A stretch of 64,000 nt of DNA, from assembly GCF_000477415.1 (NCBI RefSeq), contig NC_022575.1, forward strand, positions 1-64,000, given 5' to 3'. This stretch comes from Mycoplasma parvum str. Indiana (GTDB taxonomy: Bacteria; Bacillota_I; Bacilli_A; Mycoplasmatales; Mycoplasmoidaceae). The translations under genes were made by a program, and so were the position numbers. The notes beneath the pieces were generated by a model. The model did not search any database, had not been told where the DNA came from, and was given only the letters and a program-made list of their open reading frames with translations. This document shows positions 34,284 to 62,947 of this stretch, piece by piece (within the stretch, counting starts at the first letter, position 1; the number at the start of each line of letters is the position of its first letter).

Positions 34284-34443
34284 AATTCTTAAAACAGACA
34301 AATCTTTTTAAATAGTAAAAGTATTTATTTTTTTTCAGTTCTATTTTTTAAAAATTTATCAATAATCCCCTTATTAATGAGGTATTTTGTGTATATACAT
34401 TACACATAAAATTTAATTTGCATAAAAATTTTTTCAGTAATTG

Positions 34444-35525
34444 TTGAGGTATAGACATGGAGTTTATTTAGTAGTTCCTTTGGCTGCCGGCGGCAGCACA
34501 ACTTATTATCTTTCTTCTAATAATTGAGATTTAAATTCATCTTTTTCAAATTTTTTTAGTAAATTCCCGTGGGGGGGGCAATCTCAATAATTTCTCGTTA
34601 TGAATCCTTATCTAAAAATAAAGCTTTGCGATTGCAAGATTCAAAAGCTAAATCTTTAGAAGATGAATTAAAAATAGATAATCTTGAGACTCACCTCAAT
34701 AAAATCAATAATTTAAATAATTTGTCAAATGCGATTTTTTCAGAAGCTTTAGAAAGAAAAAGTCCAGTTTTTGATATAAAAAGAAGTATTGAAAAAATTA
34801 CTAAAGAAATAAATAAAGAAAGTGGATTATCCACAATTGATAGTGAATCTAAAATCGAGTTATCAAATTCACAAAGCAAATTAACCAATTTTAAAGAAAA
34901 CTTTAAAAAAGTTTACGATCAAGTAAAAACATGAGAATCTCGGGGAGATTCTAAAAAAATAAGACTTCAAAAAGGTTTTCAACTTCCAGAAAAAATAAAT
35001 CCACCATCTTTAGAGCAGAGAGAAGCTTTATTAAAATACTATGAAATTTTTTCTAATTTAAAAGGAAATGAAAGTGAATTTTTAAAAGGAATAGATAATT
35101 TAAATAAATATTCTGATTATCAAAAAGTTGGTGGTCAAATTCCTAGAAATAATCGAGAAATAATATCAGCTCTTAAAAAAATTGGTTGGAATAAAAATAG
35201 TAAAGTTGGTTTTGGAGAATATTTAAGAATTAAAAATCAAGAAAATGATGATCCTTTTTCTATATTGTTAGATGTCGAATATTTAAATGATTCTAGAGCT
35301 AAAGCTTTGGAATGAGAAGAAAAGATATTAGCGTTTAAAGGCGCAAATCCTTATAGTAAATGTAATTGAAAATGGAGTAATCATTATTGCTCATCGCAAA
35401 TTGAAGCATCAACAAAAAATTTTAGGGAGGTACAAGAAGATATAGAAGCACAAATGACTGTAAAAATAGCTTCTATATTAATAGAAAAAATGACAACAAA
35501 ATTAAATTTAGAAGAATTTAAATAA
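34444..35525 (+). CDS. Anchored coiled-coil protein, family A, poly-G out of frame (OFF)
   Basis: TTG 34444 opens an anchor segment (YRHGVYLVVPLAAGGSTTYYL). At the G8 tract (34571-34578) the frame runs to TAA 34588. One more G would join it to the long downstream frame (from about 34569) and give a ~360-residue protein: helical middle (SIEKITKEINKESGLSTID), NDDPFSILLDVEYL and a Cys-containing end (PYSKCNWKWSNHYCSS). The same architecture occurs at 35533, 56217 and 61781. Such tracts are classic slipped-strand switches of surface proteins. Function unknown. Confidence 0.75.
34571..34578 (+). repeat. G8 homopolymer tract in family A gene
   Basis: Eight consecutive G in coding DNA that is about three quarters A+T. 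The length sets the reading frame: 8 gives a truncated 48-residue product, 9 would give the full protein. Confidence 0.9.
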
Positions 35526-35532
35526 GAATATT

Positions 35533-36607
35533 TTGAGATATAAATATGGAATTTATTTGTTATTTCCATTATTAATTGGTGGCAATTCAATTGTTTTTTT
35601 ATTGCCAAATAATAAAAATATGAAAGGCTTTACTTCCAGTCTTTTAAATCTTGGGGGGGGGCTTTAATAATTTAGATTTTCATAATGTTTCAGGAAATAA
35701 AAGTCTTAAATTAAATAATTCTTCAATTGACAGAACAAAACTTGAGCTAGATAAAGTAGATTTAGAGAAAAAATCTCTGGAAGTCAATCTTCCGGACTAT
35801 TTGGAAAATATTAAGCTTGATTTAAAAGTAACTGGAAATCTTTCAGAAGTTGAAGGAACTCTTTCTTCAATTAATCAAGAAATTAAAAAAGAAAAAGATA
35901 TTGAGGGAGTAGGAGAAGAAAGAGAATCAAGATTAAAAGAATCTAAAAAAGAAGTTGAAAAATTTTCTGGAGATTTTAAAACAGTTTTAGAAAATTTAAA
36001 AGATTCAAAAACACATAGTCAAGCCTCTGGAACAAAATTAGTAAAAAAAAGATCTTTGCCTGATAATAATGAAGAAATAAAACAATTAACAAAAGAGCAA
36101 AGAAATAGTGTTTATCAGTTTTTTAAACAAAAATCAAATTTAGAAGAAAATAAGGAAAAATTATCAAAAAAATTGGAACAAATACAGCTTGGAGCGTTAG
36201 ATGAAAAAAATAAACTCCAACAACTTAGGGAAGTTCAAAATAAAAATGAAAGAGTTTTAAAATCTTTAGAAAAAATAAATTGATTTAGTCAAAAGAATAT
36301 AAAATTCGATGAGTTTACTAAATTTAATTACTGAGACAACAATCCATATTCAGATTTATTAAGTTATGAAGAATGAACAGAAATTAATGAAATTTTTAAG
36401 CAAACAGGCAATAGTCTTGAAGAGATGAGAAAGGATCCTTTAAGAAGAACTTGCTCTCTTTTTTTGATGATCTTTTTTTCTTCTCATGTTTGTTATCGAG
36501 GGGAAAATGATTTAAAAGAATTACAAGAAAAAATAAAAAAGAAAGTTCCTTCAATGGTGGCTTTAAGTTTATTCCAAAAAATGGGAATAAAAGTTAATGA
36601 AGAATAA
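35533..36607 (+). CDS. Anchored coiled-coil protein, family A, poly-G out of frame (OFF)
   Basis: TTG 35533 opens an anchor (RYKYGIYLLFPLLIGGNSIVFLL) closely similar to the preceding gene. At a G9 tract (35653-35661) the frame runs into TAA 35665. Losing one G (or gaining two) joins the downstream frame: TLSSINQEIKKEKDIEG, a long helical region, NNPYSDLLSYEEW and a C-terminal two-Cys segment (RRTCSLFLMIFFSSHVCYRG). Full length would be ~357 residues. It lies 7 bp after the previous copy, an apparent tandem duplication. Confidence 0.75.
35653..35661 (+). repeat. G9 homopolymer tract in family A gene
   Basis: Nine G directly after the anchor-coding part. Eight or eleven G would be in frame with the rest of the gene; nine is not. 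Confidence 0.9.
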
Positions 36608-54796: not shown

Positions 54797-56137
54797 ATGG
54801 ACGACAGAACTTTTAAATTAGTTGCTGAGTCTTCTAGAGAAAAACATTTAGAGTTTCTTTTAGATTATTCTAAGGCTACTGCAATTTTTTGAATAGACTC
54901 TAGCAAACTTAATCCTACTGCATTTGCAGTAGAGATTAAAAAATGTTTGCAAAAAATTAATTCTTGACAAATAGATTTATCTACATTTATAAAAGCATGC
55001 GAACCCACTTTTACTCCCTATGATATTGAGTTGTATTTAAGAAGTATAGTTAATGCTTGAACTAGAGATCCTGTTTCTTTCAAAAAAAAGAAAGATATTA
55101 ATTTAAAAGCAGTTGAATTTATTGGAGTTGATAAATTAAGTCAAGAAATCAAAAATATTATTGATGGAGAGGAAGAAGTTAAAAAATGAGGAGAAATGCC
55201 TCCAAATATGTTAAGTTCTTCTACATTTGTTTATGAAATTGCAAAAATAGCTGAAAAACAAAACTTAGATTGTGAAGTTTGAGATTGAGAAGAATTAAAT
55301 AGACAACAATTTAATTTAATTTGCTCTGTTGGAAGAAATAAAAAAAGCTCTTATTTAATTATTTTGAAGGAAAAGAATAGTAATATGAAAAATTTGGATA
55401 ATAGAAAAAGAATTGTTTTGATAGGTAAAGGAATTTGTTTTGATACTGGTGGTTTAAGTATTAAAACTGGAAATTATATGAGAAATATGAAATTTGATAT
55501 GACCGGAGCTGCTTTGGTGGCTTCAATTTTTATTACTTTAGCTAAAAATGGTTTCTCTAAAGAAAATGAAATAATTGCACTTTTACCTATTTCCGAAAAT
55601 TTAGTAGGTGCCGATTCTATGAAAGTTGATAGTGTAATTACGTCTTATGGAGGTAAAAGTGTTGAAATTTCCAATACTGATGCTGAAGGAAGGTTAATTT
55701 TGGCTGATTCTATTTCTTATGCTTCTAAAAAATTGAAAGCTTCAGAAATCATTACTGTAGCAACTTTAACAGGGGCAGTTAAATATGCTTTGGGAAGTAA
55801 ATATGCTGGAGTTTGAACTAGTTCTGAAGATTCTTGAAAAAAACTTGAAGAATCTTCTGCCTATTCAGGAGATTATATTTGAAGACTACCTTTGGATGAA
55901 TATTATTTGGAAGAGTTGAAGAGTGAAATCAGTGATTTTAAGAATTCTGCCGCTACCAGTGCGGGAGGCGCTTCAAGGGCAGCAGCTTTTTTAGCAGCTT
56001 TCAAGGATAAAGAAAGCTTTATTCATTTTGATATAGCTAATGTTTCAAATACTGAAGGTAAAAGTAGTTTTGGTTTAGCCCCATTATTTAAAACTATTTA
56101 TTTCTATTTAAATAGAAAGGTAAATCATCTTTCATAA
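54797..56137 (+). CDS. pepA: Leucyl aminopeptidase PepA (M17)
   Basis: 446 residues. VLIGKGICFDTGGLSIK, FDMTGAALV, and the M17 signature SNTDAEGRLILADS, ending with AATSAGGASRAAAFL. Two-zinc exopeptidase releasing N-terminal residues; with PepF it would complete peptide use. ATG start. Confidence 0.95.
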
Positions 56138-56162
56138 AAATTTTTAGTTAATTAAATAGATT

Positions 56163-56190
56163 TTTTTCCTCCCCTTAGGGGGGGGAAGAA
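56163..56190. terminator. C/G-rich hairpin with G8 between convergent genes
   Basis: CCTCCCC then TTA then G8 (56178-56185) can pair with one T-G wobble; T-rich on the left, A-rich on the right, so it can end pepA and the minus-strand 56217 gene alike. Confidence 0.6.
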
Positions 56191-56216
56191 AGACAAAGTT
56201 GAATTGATTTAAAAGT

Positions 56217-57347
56217 TTATTTCCCTTGTTGAGTAAATAAAGATTCAATTTTTATTTCTTCTTCTCCGATCATTTTATTAAGCATTTTTGAACCAATTTT
56301 TAAATTGATTAATTGTTCATTCATTTTTTGAAAATTTTTCTCATCCATTAATGATGTGGAACATTCACCCGAATCATGCATGAGAACACAAACAGCTGAA
56401 AACAATAAATGTTGAAAATTATTTTTTACTTCAATATTTCTTTTAATTCTTGTTTTAGATTCTTTAATTAATTCCCATTCTTTATTATCAATCAGATTTA
56501 AATAAGGATTTTTTTCATCCAATTTTTCTTTTAAAAGTGATTGTATTTTAGTTTTATCTTTTTCTCAATCAATTTTCTTTAAAGAACTAATAATCTGTTT
56601 ATTATCTTCATTATTATTTTTTCCTTGATTATTTTTATTAATATCGGAAGATTTATTGATTTTGGATATTCTATTAGTTAATTTTTCTCTCTCTTCATTT
56701 AAGTTAGAAAATTTTTCAAAATAATTTTGCAATGCTTTTCTGTCATCTACTTTTAAATGTGAATTTTCTAAATTTCGCAATTTTAGATTTTCGTACAAAT
56801 GTTTATTTTTTAAGATGTCAAATTGTTTTATGGCCTCTATATTTTGTTTTCATTCTTGTATATTTTTTCTTGCTTTTTGAAAATTTTCAGAATGAGATTT
56901 TAATTCTTCCATAGCTTTCTTTAATTTTTGTTCTCTTCTATCATTAATTTTTGTTACTTTAGTTTCTTTATTGATTTCTTTATGAATTTTTTTAACCATA
57001 TTTTCTGTATTTTTGTTATTCATTATTTCGGGATTTTCAATTATTTTTAATAAGTTTTCGGATTCTTTTATTTGCTTAAATGCTTCATTTTGAACATAAA
57101 AATCTTTTATATTTTCTAAATTACTATTGTTAGTTTCTGATAATTTATTATTTGAAAAATTCAATGAAGAATTTTGTTTATTATCTTTTGCAAATCAATT
57201 TCTAAAGAAAGAAGAAAATTTATTTCCTAGTTTGAATTTGGATGATGAGTAGTTACTATTTGTGAAATTAGCCGTTAAAGAAGCTACTCCACTAACTCCA
57301 ATTAAAGAAAAAGCGATCAGATAAAGTTTGTGTTTTAGCTGAAACAA
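56217..57347 (-). CDS. Anchored coiled-coil protein, family A (in frame)
   Basis: 376 residues. N-terminal anchor (YLIAFSLIGVSGVASLTANF), then helical, Lys/Glu/Asn-rich segments with the family block MVKKIHKEINKETKVTKIND and ELKSHSENFQKARKNIQEW, and a C-terminal part with KNPYLNLIDNKEWELI and SAVCVLMHDSGECSTS. Homologous in outline to 34444, 35533 and 61781. No poly-G tract in the coding part. TTG start 57347; UGA-Trp codons at 57195-57197 and elsewhere. Function unknown; probably surface-exposed. Confidence 0.7.
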
Positions 57348-57411
57348 TGATTTTTTTCGAAACTAGGGAAATTAGATTATAGACTTTTAATTCATTTGTT
57401 AAAAAATTTTT

Positions 57412-57441
57412 GAAGATAGGGGTAAGAATCCCCTACCCCCC
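57412..57441 (-). terminator. Hairpin plus C7 tract between two family genes
   Basis: TAGGGG TAAGAAT CCCCTA followed by a C7 run (57435-57441). It lies past the stop of 57548 (minus) and ahead of the 57347 start, so it may end one gene; a variable tract here could also alter expression of the next. Confidence 0.45.
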
Positions 57442-57547
57442 CTAAGGTTTAATTTATAGTTGGTTGGATTTTTTTAAAAATATAAGTTTTTTGTATTCAT
57501 ATAATTAAATTTCCATTTTTATTTAAAATTGTGAATTAATTTTTGAA

Positions 57548-58621
57548 TTATTTTTTGTTTTGGAAATTTAATTTACATATATTTGCATTAGTATTTTTAG
57601 TATTGTTACATATAGAATTTTTAAATTTTCCCTCAAAGTATTGCAAATCAATAATATTTTTCTTTAAATTTTGTAATTCTTCATAAACTTTTTCTAATTT
57701 TTGTCTCAAATTATTTAATTTTTCAATCTCTGAATTAGATTTATTTTGTAAATTTTTTATTCTATTGGCAAATTTCTCTGTTAATAAATTTAACTTAAGA
57801 ATTACATCATTATTTATGTTTCTGATAGATATTAAATTAATTTCTTTAGATATCAAATTAGTTCTCAATTGTGCATTTTTATAAAACTCTTCAATTAATT
57901 CTTCTCTTTTCTTTTTTAATTTTTCTTTGATATCATTTAATGTTTTTTTAGCTTCTAAACCACTTGAATTACTTAAGTTTGAAGAAATTTGTTGTCCCCC
58001 CCCATCCGAATTAGAAATTAAACTTGTATTTTTTGGTTCTCAAGCAATTCACGATGGATTTAATTTTTCACAATTTTGTGAATTATTTTTTTCTTTTTGT
58101 TCGCTGTGTTCAATTATGCAAATAAATTTGCTTAAAAGCTCCCCTTGACTTGAAATTAATTTTTTAATTTCCAGCAATAAAGAAACTAAATTTTCTAAAA
58201 GATTCAATTCAATTAACAAATTTATTTTTTCAGTCGTTTGTTTAGATAATTCCTGAGATATTGAATCTAAATCATTTAAAGTTTTTAAATTTTCTTCATA
58301 AAAAGAAATTAATTGTTTTTCTGCTTCAAAGATGGATTGAAATGTTTTTTCAATAATTTCATCTTTAATTTTTTTAAGTTCTTGCGCTTTTTCTTTAGAG
58401 AGTTTTAAGTTTTCAAATAATGGATTTAATAAACTCAATTGTTTATTTTCTTCTTCTGAAAAATGTTCTGTATTTTTATTTTCATAGCTAGAAGAAGATT
58501 TTTGAAAAAATGTATCTAATTTTGTATTAGTCTTTAGAAAATAAGGAATTAAAAAAGTAGATAGGCCACAAGAACTTGAAAGTAAAGTTCCAATCATTAC
58601 TATCTTAGAAAGTAGAAAAAT
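57548..58621 (-). CDS. Anchored coiled-coil protein, family B, poly-G in frame (ON)
   Basis: 357 residues from ATT 58621 (349 from ATG 58597). Anchor (LLSSSCGLSTFLIPYF), long helical halves (LFENLKLSKEKAQELKKIKD; LTEKFANRIKNLQNKSNSEI) and a Cys-containing end (FKNSICNNTKNTNANIC). A G8 tract near residue 206 encodes GGG in GGGQQ and is in frame. Its paralogue at 60626 has the same tract at the same place. The first codons (FLLSK) are conserved between the two, supporting the ATT start. Function unknown. Confidence 0.72.
57996..58003 (-). repeat. G8 tract (plus-strand C8) in family B gene
   Basis: Eight G on the coding strand, encoding glycines before QQ. The present length keeps the frame open; a change of one or two would cut the protein at about residue 210. 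Confidence 0.9.
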
Positions 58622-58839
58622 TGTTGATTAAAAAATGACTTTATTTAGTTTGATTTTTTGTATCTAATAAGTTAAAAATACCTTCAGATTTTAAAAAAAT
58701 ATAAAATTTTACTTCCCTTATATATTTCCCTTAAATAATTTAATTAATCTAAATTGTTTAAAATTTTGTTTTTCAAATATTCCACTTAGTTTACATGCTT
58801 CCAAAATAAACCAGACAAGAATTTTAATTCCTTGAGGTC
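58622..58839. other. Divergent promoter region
   Basis: 218 bp of AT-rich DNA between the minus-strand family B gene and the plus-strand 58840 gene. Both promoters should be here, but I cannot assign boxes with confidence. Confidence 0.35.
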
Positions 58840-60285
58840 TTGCGGGGCAAGCTTTGGATTTCTTTAACTGGTCTTTTTTCTTTATTTGGAATTTCTATTA
58901 CAACTCATGTATTTTCTTGAGGAGGAAATAAATCCTTAAAACCTGCTCAAACAGAAAATAATTATTTTAAAGATGCTTTACATAGCTTAAAACTTGCAGA
59001 TTTTAGAAGTGATAAATTTGTTAGAACTAAAAATAGTAGTTTAGATAAAAATCATTTAGGAACTCTACAGTATGAGAGCGAAGGCTCTCATACTCCTTGA
59101 TATTTTGTAACTAAAGACAATCAAATTATTAAGATAAGTCCTAGTCTTCATGGACAGAAGAAAAGAGTAATGAGAGATGGTATTTTCATTGATAAACAAA
59201 ATGTTTGATTTGGAGTGAGAAATAATAATATAGAGCGGGTTTCGATAGATTCCATTAAGGATGTAAAAATTTATAAAAACTTTTTCAAAAAATTAGATAG
59301 AGAAGAATTAAAAACATTACAAAATTGATGAAATAGTAAAAGTGACAACGATAAATGTGAAATTCTAAATATAGTAATTGGTTGTCAAGAATTTAAAGAA
59401 ATTTTAGGAGATAAAGAACAAAAACAGGAAATAAATAAAATATTAGAGCTTAATATTGAGCAGATTTTAACTTTGTCTCAACAATATAAAGGAAATGAAA
59501 TAGCGCCATTAAAAGAAATTATAGGGCAAGATAAGGTAATGAATTTCCCAAAATTAAGTAATAATGTTGGCTCGCTTATTGGAGATCCTATAGATAAATG
59601 ATTAAAAGAATATTTAAGTGGAGAGGCAAAGAGAAAGGAGGAAAGCGGCGAAATTAATCCTTTTTCTTTATTAGCAAGATTAACTATAGGGGATAATGCT
59701 TATCAAAAATGTCAATACGATAACAATGAATTAATTAAATACATATATCCTGAATGTTTTGCAGAAATAAAACACGTTAAAAATAAACATATCGGAAATC
59801 ATAAAAATGAAAATCAAATCATTCCTCATGTAAAAGAAGTTATTAAGGGTGGGATTGTAAAAAAATGATTGTGATTGCCAAGTATTGTAAAATTTTCTAA
59901 AAAATTTGACAAAAAAGAAAAAAATTCTGAAAAAGAAGCAAAGCCCATTACTTGAAAAGATTTAGGAGATGCTGGAAATTATACAGCAAAAATTATTAAG
60001 GATTGGGAAAAAACAGGAAGAAGTGGAAATTTAATAGATTTAAAATGTCAATATTTAGATTGACAACTTTTAAAACTTTTTAATATATCGGGAGGAGAAT
60101 CACAAGGATGTCAATTGTTATTAAAGGTTATTTTTAGTGGAAATATTGATGATAAAAGATGATGTCTTTTTGAGATAAATGGCGCTAAAAAATATATTAG
60201 AGAATATGAATTTAAATTTTTATCCTCTTTTAATTGATATGATGGCAATAAATTTTGAGCAAAATGCTCATCCTACAATATATAA
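58840..60285 (+). CDS. Large anchored protein of unknown function
   Basis: 481 residues from TTG 58840 (first start after TAA 58825). Anchor (ISLTGLFSLFGISITTHVF), then a hydrophilic body with scattered Cys (DKCEILNIVIGCQEF; YQKCQYDN; LKCQYLDWQLL; GCQLLLKVIF; FWAKCSSYNI). Repeated YLDWQLLKLF and NWYDGNKFW stretches are read with UGA-Trp; more than a dozen in-frame TGA hide it from standard-code ORF finders. A perfect 11-bp hairpin (59069-59094) lies in frame. Unrecognised; surface location is inferred from topology. Confidence 0.65.
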
Positions 60286-60305
60286 ATAATTTTCAATAAA
60301 AAATA

Positions 60306-60328
60306 ATAAAGGGTTTTTAGCCCTTTAT
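60306..60328. terminator. Intrinsic terminator after the 58840 gene
   Basis: ATAAAGGG / CCCTTTAT with a T-rich 7-nt loop, 21 bp after the stop; also positioned to end the minus-strand 60376 gene. Confidence 0.6.
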
Positions 60329-60375
60329 ATCAAAAAAACTTTAAATAGAGTTGTTGATTTTAATTAATTAGTTTG

Positions 60376-60618
60376 CTATTTGATATTATTTTTTATTTTT
60401 TTATTAATTTTTTTAGCATTTTTAGATTTAACTTCCAATTTTAAATCTATTTCTTGTGCATTTACTAATAGCTCTTCAATTTCTTCATCTAATTCTTTAT
60501 TTAATAATTCAATAAAAATATTCATTAAGTCATAATAAAAATTATCAATTTCTTCAAAATCTCATTCACGTCGTTTTTTATTCGAAAAAAACATTTTGAG
60601 CTCTTTTTGTTTTTTCAA
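60376..60618 (-). CDS. Small charged protein downstream of a family B gene
   Basis: 80 residues from TTG 60618 (72 from ATG 60594). Highly charged, helical: FFSNKKRREWDFEEIDNF, then ELDEEIEELLVNAQEIDL and a Lys-rich end. No anchor. Begins 7 bp after the stop of the 60626 gene on the same strand, so the two are probably co-transcribed. Too short for the standard-code ORF track because of UGA-Trp at residue 19 or so. Unrecognised. Confidence 0.5.
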
Positions 60619-60625
60619 TTTTTAA

Positions 60626-61615
60626 TTATTTTATATTTTCAATACAACTGACTTTTTGTTTATTTTCTTGTTTATACATTTCAATATTTTGACATATATT
60701 ATTTTTTAATATTCCTTCGTAATTTTGAAAAATAGGAACTTTATCTTTTAAATTTTGTAATTTTTTGTAAGTTGTTGTAAGCTGTTTTTGAAGTTCATTT
60801 AATTTTTTAATAATTTCATTTATTTCCATTTCTAAAATACGAGATTCTAGCTTAAGAGATGAAAAAAATCTTTCAAAAATACGCATTTTCAACTTTATAT
60901 CATTGATAAAATTGACGATTCTAAATTCTTTTTTTAAAAATTCTTCGCTCAAATAATTTATTTGTAGTAATTTGTTTATAGCTTTAGAATTTTCTTTCAT
61001 AATATTTTGTTTAAAATTTTGTAATTTTTCTTTCGCTCAATTTCCTTTTAAATTATTGTTATTTGATTCTTGTTGCCCCCCCCGAAAAGTTTTATTAGTT
61101 TCTGTTTCCACTATTTTATATAAAGAATCAAAAAAATTACTTCAATTGTTGATAGCTTTGTAAATACTATTTAATAAATTTATAGAATTTCTTATTGCAT
61201 TTAGAGTTGCCTCCAACTCTAAATGTTTTTCTTGGTATTTATTTATATTTTCTAATAATTTAGATAAATTATTTTTAGTTTCTAAATTATTTTTGTATAA
61301 ATCAGAAAGTTCTTTTTCTGACTTTAAAATAGATTCCAAAAATAAATTTATAGATTTATTAATTAAATCTTTAAGTTCTTTAGAATTTTTTAAAGTTTTG
61401 GATAATTCGTCATAAAGATTTAATAATTCCTTAAATTTATTTGCTTCTTGATTTTCGAATATTTGTATATTTTGATTGTTAAATTTAGATTCAATTTTTT
61501 GAAATAACTTTTTTAAACTATTGTTTTCTAGATTATAAGGGATTAAATAAACAGAAGTCCCAACTATCCCTGTAGACAGGGAAGCTAAGGATACTAACTT
61601 AGAAAGTAGAAAAAT
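60626..61615 (-). CDS. Anchored coiled-coil protein, family B, poly-G in frame (ON)
   Basis: 329 residues from ATT 61615, the same first codons as the 57548 paralogue (FLLSK). Anchor (VSLASLSTGIVGTSVYLIPY), helical halves (LESILKSEKELSDLYKNNL; LEMEINEIIKKLNELQKQL) and Cys-containing end (LKNNICQNIEMYKQEN, KVSCIENIK). A G8 tract near residue 178 encodes RGG in RGGQQ and is in frame. No ATG/GTG/TTG before the anchor. Function unknown. Confidence 0.72.
61076..61083 (-). repeat. G8 tract (plus-strand C8) in family B gene
   Basis: Eight G on the coding strand at the same site as in the paralogue (before codons for QQ). Present length is in frame. Confidence 0.9.
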
Positions 61616-61712
61616 TTAAATTCACCTAGTAGTTAAAAAATTTAAATTATCTATTAAAAATTAAAGAAAACTTCCAAAACTCAGGAAAAACAAAGATTTA
61701 AAAAAATAAAAT

Positions 61713-61742
61713 GCGCGGGGGAATTCTTCCTGAATCCCCCGC
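61713..61742 (-). terminator. GC-rich hairpin after the 61781 gene
   Basis: GCGGGGGA / TCCCCCGC with a 12-nt loop region, flanked by A and T runs, 39 bp past the stop of the minus-strand gene. Among the most GC-rich bases of the window. Confidence 0.65.
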
Positions 61743-61780
61743 AAAATTCATTATACACTATTAATTTAAAAAACTAATTT

Positions 61781-62845
61781 CTATCTAGATTCTTCTATTT
61801 TTAATTGACCCATTTTTTTCAACAAATTAGTTGCAATTAGTAAATTCATTTCATAAAAAACATTATTTAAATTATTTTTATTATTTTTTTCTTTTTTCGC
61901 CTCAATTATTCTTCTCATATGTATTTCTCATTCAATCTCAGTATCAAATAATGCATTAAAGGGATTGTCTTCTCATTTTTCTTTCCACCCAAAACTAGAA
62001 GCTAATGATTTATCTTTACCTTTAAACAATGTTTTTTCTTTATCTCAATTAATTTCTTTTAAATTTTTTAATATTTTTTCAATATTTTCTTTTTCCCCTT
62101 TAAATTCATTTTTTTTAACTTCTTCACTATTACTTCTAATACTTTTATTTAATTTATTTTGTAAATTTATCATATTTTCATGTAAATCTATATAACTTTT
62201 TAAAAATTCTTTTAAAGCTATTTTGTGCTCTTTATTTAATTCTGTAACTTTTGAAGATCTATCTCCGTAACATAATTTATATTCCTTTTCTTGAGCAATT
62301 ATACAAATAGATGATTGAGCGCCTTTAATTTTTTCATCATAATATTCTTTTGTTTTTTTGAAAGCTTGTTCATAATGTTGTTTTTTTGTTTCTAATTCTT
62401 TTATCGCTTTTTTAATTATTTCTTCTTGCTTTTCATTAATTTTGCTTATATTATTTTCTCTCTTAACTTCTCTTGTTATTTTTTTTACATTACGTGTAAC
62501 ATCATTGAATTGTTGTTTAATTTCTCGCTCATTACCAGAAGAATCAATTAATAAAACTTCAGAATTATTAACTTGAATATTTATTGTATTTGCAGAAATA
62601 TTTATTTCTTTTGAATCGTTTAATTTCAAATGATCAGAGTTAATTTGTTGAAATTTAAGTTTGTCTTCTTGAGGAGAAGATTTCAATATTTCATTTTCAT
62701 TATTGCTGGTTGTTGAAACATTTTCTTTTAACAATGATCGAAACTCTTCTCCTTTTGATTTTCAAACAAAAGGAACTGCTGTAGAATTAGCTCCTACAAC
62801 GAAAATTGCACTACCCAATAATTTGTACTTCAGGGCCAGAGGCAT
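61781..62845 (-). CDS. Anchored coiled-coil protein, family A (in frame)
   Basis: 354 residues from ATG 62845. Anchor (YKLLGSAIFVVGANSTAVPFVW), then NVKKITREVKRENNISKINE, helical KKAIKELETKKQHYEQAFKK, and the C-terminal block EDNPFNALFDTEIEWEIHM, matching the other family A members. Cys occurs in SSICIIAQEKEYKLCYGD. No poly-G tract. Ends at TAG 61781; several UGA-Trp. Function unknown. Confidence 0.7.
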
Positions 62846-62947
62846 TTTAGTTTTTAAAAATAATTCTTAGTATTAAAAAATTAAATTTTAAACAATTTTA
62901 TTTAATATGGATTATTTAGGATTTATAAATTTCTTTTTCTTAAGAAT

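Follow-up and report, generated by a model that had tools for sequence, protein, structure and literature searches.

The runs of eight guanines (G8) located in the middle of two paralogous genes of Mycoplasma parvum Indiana are very probably mutation-driven on/off switches, with slippage at these runs being well supported but inferred. The genome of this strain consists of a single contig of 564,395 bases, of which the first 64,000 bases were analyzed here as "the window". The two genes do not stand alone: their tract recurs at the same protein site throughout a paralogue family and in four related species, with both in-frame and out-of-frame copies.

A mid-protein G tract in two window genes and their paralogues

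With reading frames being called under code 4 (UGA as tryptophan), both genes were found as the original prediction had described them, each being an open frame with an in-frame G8 tract (Table 1). The tract of paralogue 1 is preceded by 208 and followed by 151 codons, that of paralogue 2 by 178 and again 151, and BLAST searches run separately with upstream and downstream pieces revealed homology between the two genes in both halves. The lengths of 357 and 329 codons given beforehand hold if ATT is the start, with the 357 codons of paralogue 1 being an alternative length counted from the ATT at 58621, but the start codons of both genes are uncertain. An identical stretch of 18 bases lies at the presumed starts (58604-58621 and 61598-61615, both on the minus strand), where ATT is the likely first codon; the paralogues at 81651 and 85768 have ATG at this position instead. 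It had also been claimed that the G8 encodes GGQQ in both genes. The tract is in place, yet gene 1 reads GGGQQ and gene 2 RGGQQ, and the codon register of the run differs between them.

Table 1. Positions of the tract-bearing genes and their parts in the window
Feature	Coordinates	Strand	Remarks
Anchored N-terminal frame, first 34-36 kb gene	34441..34590	+	closes just past the tract; coordinates computed
G8 tract, first 34-36 kb gene	34571..34578	+	out of frame
Body frame, first 34-36 kb gene	34563..35525	+	out of register with its anchor
Anchored N-terminal frame, second 34-36 kb gene	35512..35667	+	closes just past the tract; coordinates computed
G9 tract, second 34-36 kb gene	35653..35661	+	out of frame
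Body frame, second 34-36 kb gene	35648..36607	+	
Paralogue 1	57548..58627	-	anchored, mainly helical protein; 359 codons plus stop; frame intact over the tract
G8 tract of paralogue 1	57996..58003	-	codons GGG GGG GGA; in predicted linker
Paralogue 2	60626..61615	-	329 codons plus stop, first codon ATT; frame intact over the tract
G8 tract of paralogue 2	61076..61083	-	codons CGG GGG GGG

AlphaFold models of the two window proteins (pLDDT 50.5, pTM 0.23) were too weak for a fold search. The low-confidence model places helices at 46-165 and 210-329 and the G run in the loop or linker at 166-209, which agrees with the expectation that the tract lies, in frame in both genes, between two helical halves. 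Searches of Pfam and NCBIfam with four family members returned nothing over the cut-off and only weak coiled-coil scores, and an Rfam scan of 56000-62100 matched no RNA element.

The pair belongs to a family of eight members, as identified by BLAST of upstream and downstream pieces, and a genome search with one member gave the same eight loci. All eight carry the tract at the same site within the same variable linker. Four are in frame (57996, 61076 and 359131, all with G8, and 361323 with G9), and in four others, all with G8, the frame is broken at the tract (81651, 85768, 360217 and 362406, the last of which also has a short upstream half). As had been anticipated for a slip, these out-of-frame members encode an anchored N-terminal half with a short out-of-frame tail, which measures 12-21 codons after the tract.

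A second pair of genes at 34-36 kb of the window had been regarded as the OFF counterpart of the same general design. It is indeed OFF: in both genes the anchored frame (44 or 47 codons) and the body (317 codons) are out of register at the tract (G8 at 34571 and G9 at 35653). The two genes are part of an N-terminal-tract family with nine members that have a recognisable anchor, three of them in frame (169834, 171020, 172244) and six out of frame (34571, 35653, 168557, 419443, 473390, 529040). The likeness between the two pairs is valid for the design, but not for homology, as they represent different families, between which no kinship was detectable. The mid-protein pair is itself adjoined by an open frame matching the bodies of the 34-36 kb family (56217-57362, minus strand) and by another one matching these bodies weakly (61781-62866, minus strand); no G run of at least 7 is listed on the coding strand inside either.

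Conservation of the run in related species

A search with one family member (P0002) as query yielded matches in five of seven genomes of the genus, M. parvum included. The other four species are M. suis Illinois, Ca. M. haemominutum, Ca. M. haemolamae and M. ovis (names inferred), and all counts for these relatives refer to fetched regions with matches only, not to entire genomes. Across the five species the mid-protein site is occupied by a run, 7-11 bases long, in 42 homologues, 16 being in frame and 26 out of frame, a share that is indistinguishable from one third (binomial p 0.52). Tract-bearing copies, with those in frame given in brackets, number 8 (4) in M. parvum, 11 (2) in M. suis, 9 (3) in haemominutum, 10 (6) in haemolamae and 4 (1) in M. 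ovis. In M. suis both G9 copies are in frame and all nine with G7, G8 or G10 are out of frame, and a within-family example from M. parvum comprises a G7 copy out of frame (159273) and a G8 copy in frame (164486). Tract length alone does not fix the frame, since flanking indels contribute too; the G9 copies of haemominutum are in frame in three cases and out of frame in two. One M. suis member has no run and an intact gene, and in another one the run has moved from the mid-protein site to just after the anchor. The mixed frames within the eight-member family and the lengths of 7-11 over five species support the predicted independent switching by tract slippage, with switching within a population being inferred. 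The extent of the design had been understated, as it involves entire families and a clade rather than two pairs.

The DNA run itself, and not the amino acids, is what is conserved. In five of the ten haemolamae copies, paralogues at genome positions 512687-518098, the run at this protein site is inverted to poly-C, and the bases immediately next to it are reverse-complemented as well ('tg-C-gc' versus 'gc-G-ca'). The same site can thus hold either orientation of the tract and encode either glycine or proline, which is the strongest single argument for the run being kept rather than the residues. Codon usage was also considered, with tract codons being excluded by definition: GGG makes up 13.2% of the other glycine codons, and none of the 273 other Gly-Gly pairs is written GGG-GGG. 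The GG-QQ present in both window genes could raise the suspicion that the peptide GGQQ is selected, and it had been stated in advance that GGQQ kept with varied synonymous codons in relatives would refute a switch. The opposite was seen. QQ directly follows the tract in only two of the eight M. parvum members, the residues beyond the run being unconserved and its codon register varying among the eight; the glycine codons of the tract show no synonymous variation; and the five haemolamae homologues with an inverted tract encode proline. Amino-acid selection for GGQQ was rejected on these grounds and is practically ruled out.

The tract might also be thought of as a recombination joint at which N- and C-terminal halves are shuffled between paralogues, and tandem paralogue arrays with a common run would suit such an exchange. 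However, within species the distances among upstream halves correspond to those among downstream halves (Mantel r 0.55-0.75, p 0.005 or less). With the halves being mostly congruent this explanation is not favored and is very unlikely, although some exchange is not excluded, as the nearest neighbors of the two halves agree in only 19 of 36 cases.

Guanine runs and frame breaks across the genome

The M. parvum genome has a GC content of 27%, according to its report (PMC4423628). In the window, which was not selected for such runs, G/C runs comprise 28 of length 5, none of 6, one of 7, four of 8 and one of 9, and 12 matches to G7 compare with 0.46 expected, a number reached in none of 100 shuffles. 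A larger set of 274,914 bases, consisting of the window and 18 stretches picked for holding G8, contains 14 runs of 7, 72 of 8 and three of 9; for runs of exactly 8 a Markov-1 model expects 0.32, the regions having been chosen for G8. As the whole genome has 78 G8 positions, which equals 72 + 2x3, all 75 of its tracts of at least 8 are covered by this set. For the search of the rest of the genome for intragenic G tracts of at least 7, proposed beforehand as a check, these counts give 75 runs of at least 8 genome-wide and 89 of at least 7 within the 274,914 bases. Exactly 8 is the length of 72 of the 75 tracts, a tighter spread than free slippage suggests, which counts against switching.

Most of the 89 runs (69, the intergenic one at 56178 included) are followed on the same strand by an open frame with 100 codons or more, and these 69 fall into twelve multi-member groups plus singletons. 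Not every G run is a switch, and two runs near the window pair were rejected as candidates: the G8 at 56178 falls between two open frames that converge, with the frame after the run being antisense, and the G7 at 57436 overlaps a terminator-like hairpin (57412-57440, minus strand) downstream of gene 57548 and is not a coding tract. G7 runs at 380189 and 241974 lie in frame at Gly-Gly; the genes concerned are presumably DnaK-like and PtsI-like, as judged by eye from motifs.

Frame breaks in M. parvum, defined by at least 28 codons upstream and at least 100 downstream, were found at 15 of 55 classifiable tracts of at least 8 (27%), with 20 of the 75 remaining unclassified. At random positions the count was 177 of 6,080 classifiable among 20,000 (2.9%), a figure that includes ordinary gene junctions. 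Breaks are hence about nine times as frequent at the tracts (Fisher p 6e-11 versus random, 0.001 versus A/T runs of at least 8). They also occur at three of six G7 runs, compared with one of 39 A runs and one of 12 T runs of at least 8 (together 2/51), none of 50 G5 and two of 151 G4 runs (together 2/201).

These frequencies bear on the possibility that the out-of-frame copies are merely pseudogenes or homopolymer miscalls. The upstream half is short (<100 codons) or interrupted in four of the 42 homologues, all counted as out of frame, and some tract-bearing copies may well be decaying; moreover, the M. suis genome is 454-based at 38.6x, which renders its homopolymer lengths uncertain. Decay or miscalls would, however, not readily account for the excess of breaks at tracts over random positions, nor for the fact that each of the 26 out-of-frame members retains an open downstream half of 132-162 codons, and M. 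parvum Indiana was sequenced by Illumina at about 1000x, as stated in the genome report (PMC4423628). A general explanation by decay or error is therefore quite unlikely. A codon-position selection test on the halves gave third/first-second ratios of 1.0-1.8, which are saturated and weak.

Long G runs are slippery in principle, so that programmed transcriptional or ribosomal slippage could let out-of-frame genes still yield some full-length protein without any heritable switch, and the out-of-frame halves do remain open. Nevertheless, the mixture of in-frame and out-of-frame copies, with about one third in frame, and the different tract lengths among paralogues and species point to a change at the DNA level. 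No stimulatory element was found in the Rfam scan (56000-62100), a search limited to the tract and Rfam. Programmed slippage is thus regarded as unlikely, and slipped-strand mutation remains the preferred explanation.

The runs share a further feature. A cytosine follows 57 of the 75 M. parvum tracts of at least 8, compared with 11-20% of G3-G5 runs (p 1e-27 against 0.18), but just one of 14 G7 runs. In the regions fetched from the four relatives it follows 52 of 54 tracts. Such C-capped G8 runs number 46-127 per genome in all seven members of the genus and only 0-5 in 53 other genomes of the family. A search for MutS gave no match in any of the seven genomes, with 11 of 14 controls being positive.

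Type I specificity genes carry similar tracts. The hsdS genes 110882, 115316, 151722 and 152941 have G7 or G8 past the central conserved region and ahead of the second target domain and are out of frame in all four cases; PF01420 was found in both halves of 115316, the one tested. Five hsdS copies (107530, 110701, 152758, 317087, 474310) have a C8 on the coding strand at a PPxxIQQKIG motif, and in 110701 and 317087 the frame closes a few codons past this run.

A proposed half/full protein switch and its relatives

Taken together, we consider it highly likely that the run is a slipped-strand contingency tract in the central linker which decides between a half and a full protein and contributes to an independent combinatorial repertoire. 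The observed features of a contingency locus are a tract beyond chance, a frame-changing position, both frame states with differing lengths, and selection at the level of the repeat. Inferred and not shown are length changes in living populations, the surface location, and a benefit such as persistence or immune evasion; the anchor-like N-termini were judged by eye only, and a putative link to surface or modification functions rests on these and on the Pfam assignment of hsdS.

According to the proposed mechanism, the window genes would specify mainly helical proteins with a membrane anchor, from a paralogue family particular to the lineage. Replication slippage, in a lineage that apparently lacks MutS, would remove or add one G in the linker run and thereby decide whether the C-terminal half is read in frame. 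A cell would accordingly produce the protein at full length or only its anchored N-terminal half, extended by a short junk tail. Paralogues would toggle independently of one another and, with about a dozen further tract-bearing families, could form a combinatorial repertoire of surface and restriction-modification proteins.

Switching by homopolymer slippage is of a known kind. The closest layout is that of gonococcal NgoAV, where a mid-gene poly-G (lengths 6-9 among strains) has been established to determine, as proposed for the window genes, whether hsdS1/hsdS2 yields an N-terminal half or the fused protein at full length (PMC9577141). A mid-gene poly-G between domains, with a half that is open alone, is found in both the window family and M. 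parvum hsdS; NgoAV is, however, a type I restriction-modification specificity gene tested in culture (PMC9577141), whereas the window genes encode uncharacterised anchored proteins of an uncultivable mycoplasma. The likeness concerns the layout only, no comparison with NgoAV itself being involved, and homology could apply to hsdS alone. In p78 of M. fermentans (PMC3711429) a homopolymer likewise slips inside the coding sequence of a mycoplasma surface protein, but this is a poly-A in one lipoprotein gene, in contrast to poly-G in dozens of genes, often mid-protein, in haemoplasmas. The phasomes of Campylobacter and Neisseria (PMC6321876, PMC5084427) resemble M. parvum in their many repeat-driven contingency loci per genome; M. 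parvum differs by its 27% GC, by tracts mainly in lineage-specific paralogue families and by the dominance of length 8. The VNTRs of M. haemofelis have also been proposed as a path to haemoplasma phase variation (PMC3196708), but they are for the most part tandem repeats in intergenic DNA, with promoter switching as a speculation, and differ from intragenic poly-G. Haemoplasma genome papers speculate on paralogue pools and phase variation and ask for verification (PMC3196708, PMC3496576, PMC4423628). No description of poly-G tracts in haemoplasma genes or of a clade-wide repertoire was found in the literature, with only open-licence papers being searched and long result lists being covered in part.

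A more far-reaching version of the preferred reading is rather doubtful as a whole, though not out of the question. In it, the run would be more than a slippery stretch that is tolerated: a portable DNA motif independent of orientation (8-11 G capped by C, with 'gc-G-ca' in haemolamae), planted in more than ten families of a single clade that show no detectable kinship and kept close to a length typical of the species, serving as a dedicated switchboard that toggles half and full anchored proteins together with restriction-modification specificity.

Haemoplasmas are uncultivable, blood-dwelling bacteria, M. parvum being found in pigs, and the tract-bearing loci named here allow their persistence in blood to be studied without culture, in deep reads already obtained from infected animals. 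If poly-G tracts do form a repertoire throughout the clade, with a half/full switch conserved at mid-protein sites, this would offer a mechanism for such persistence, and it would serve as a warning that many short hypothetical annotations in haemoplasma genomes may be out-of-frame halves.
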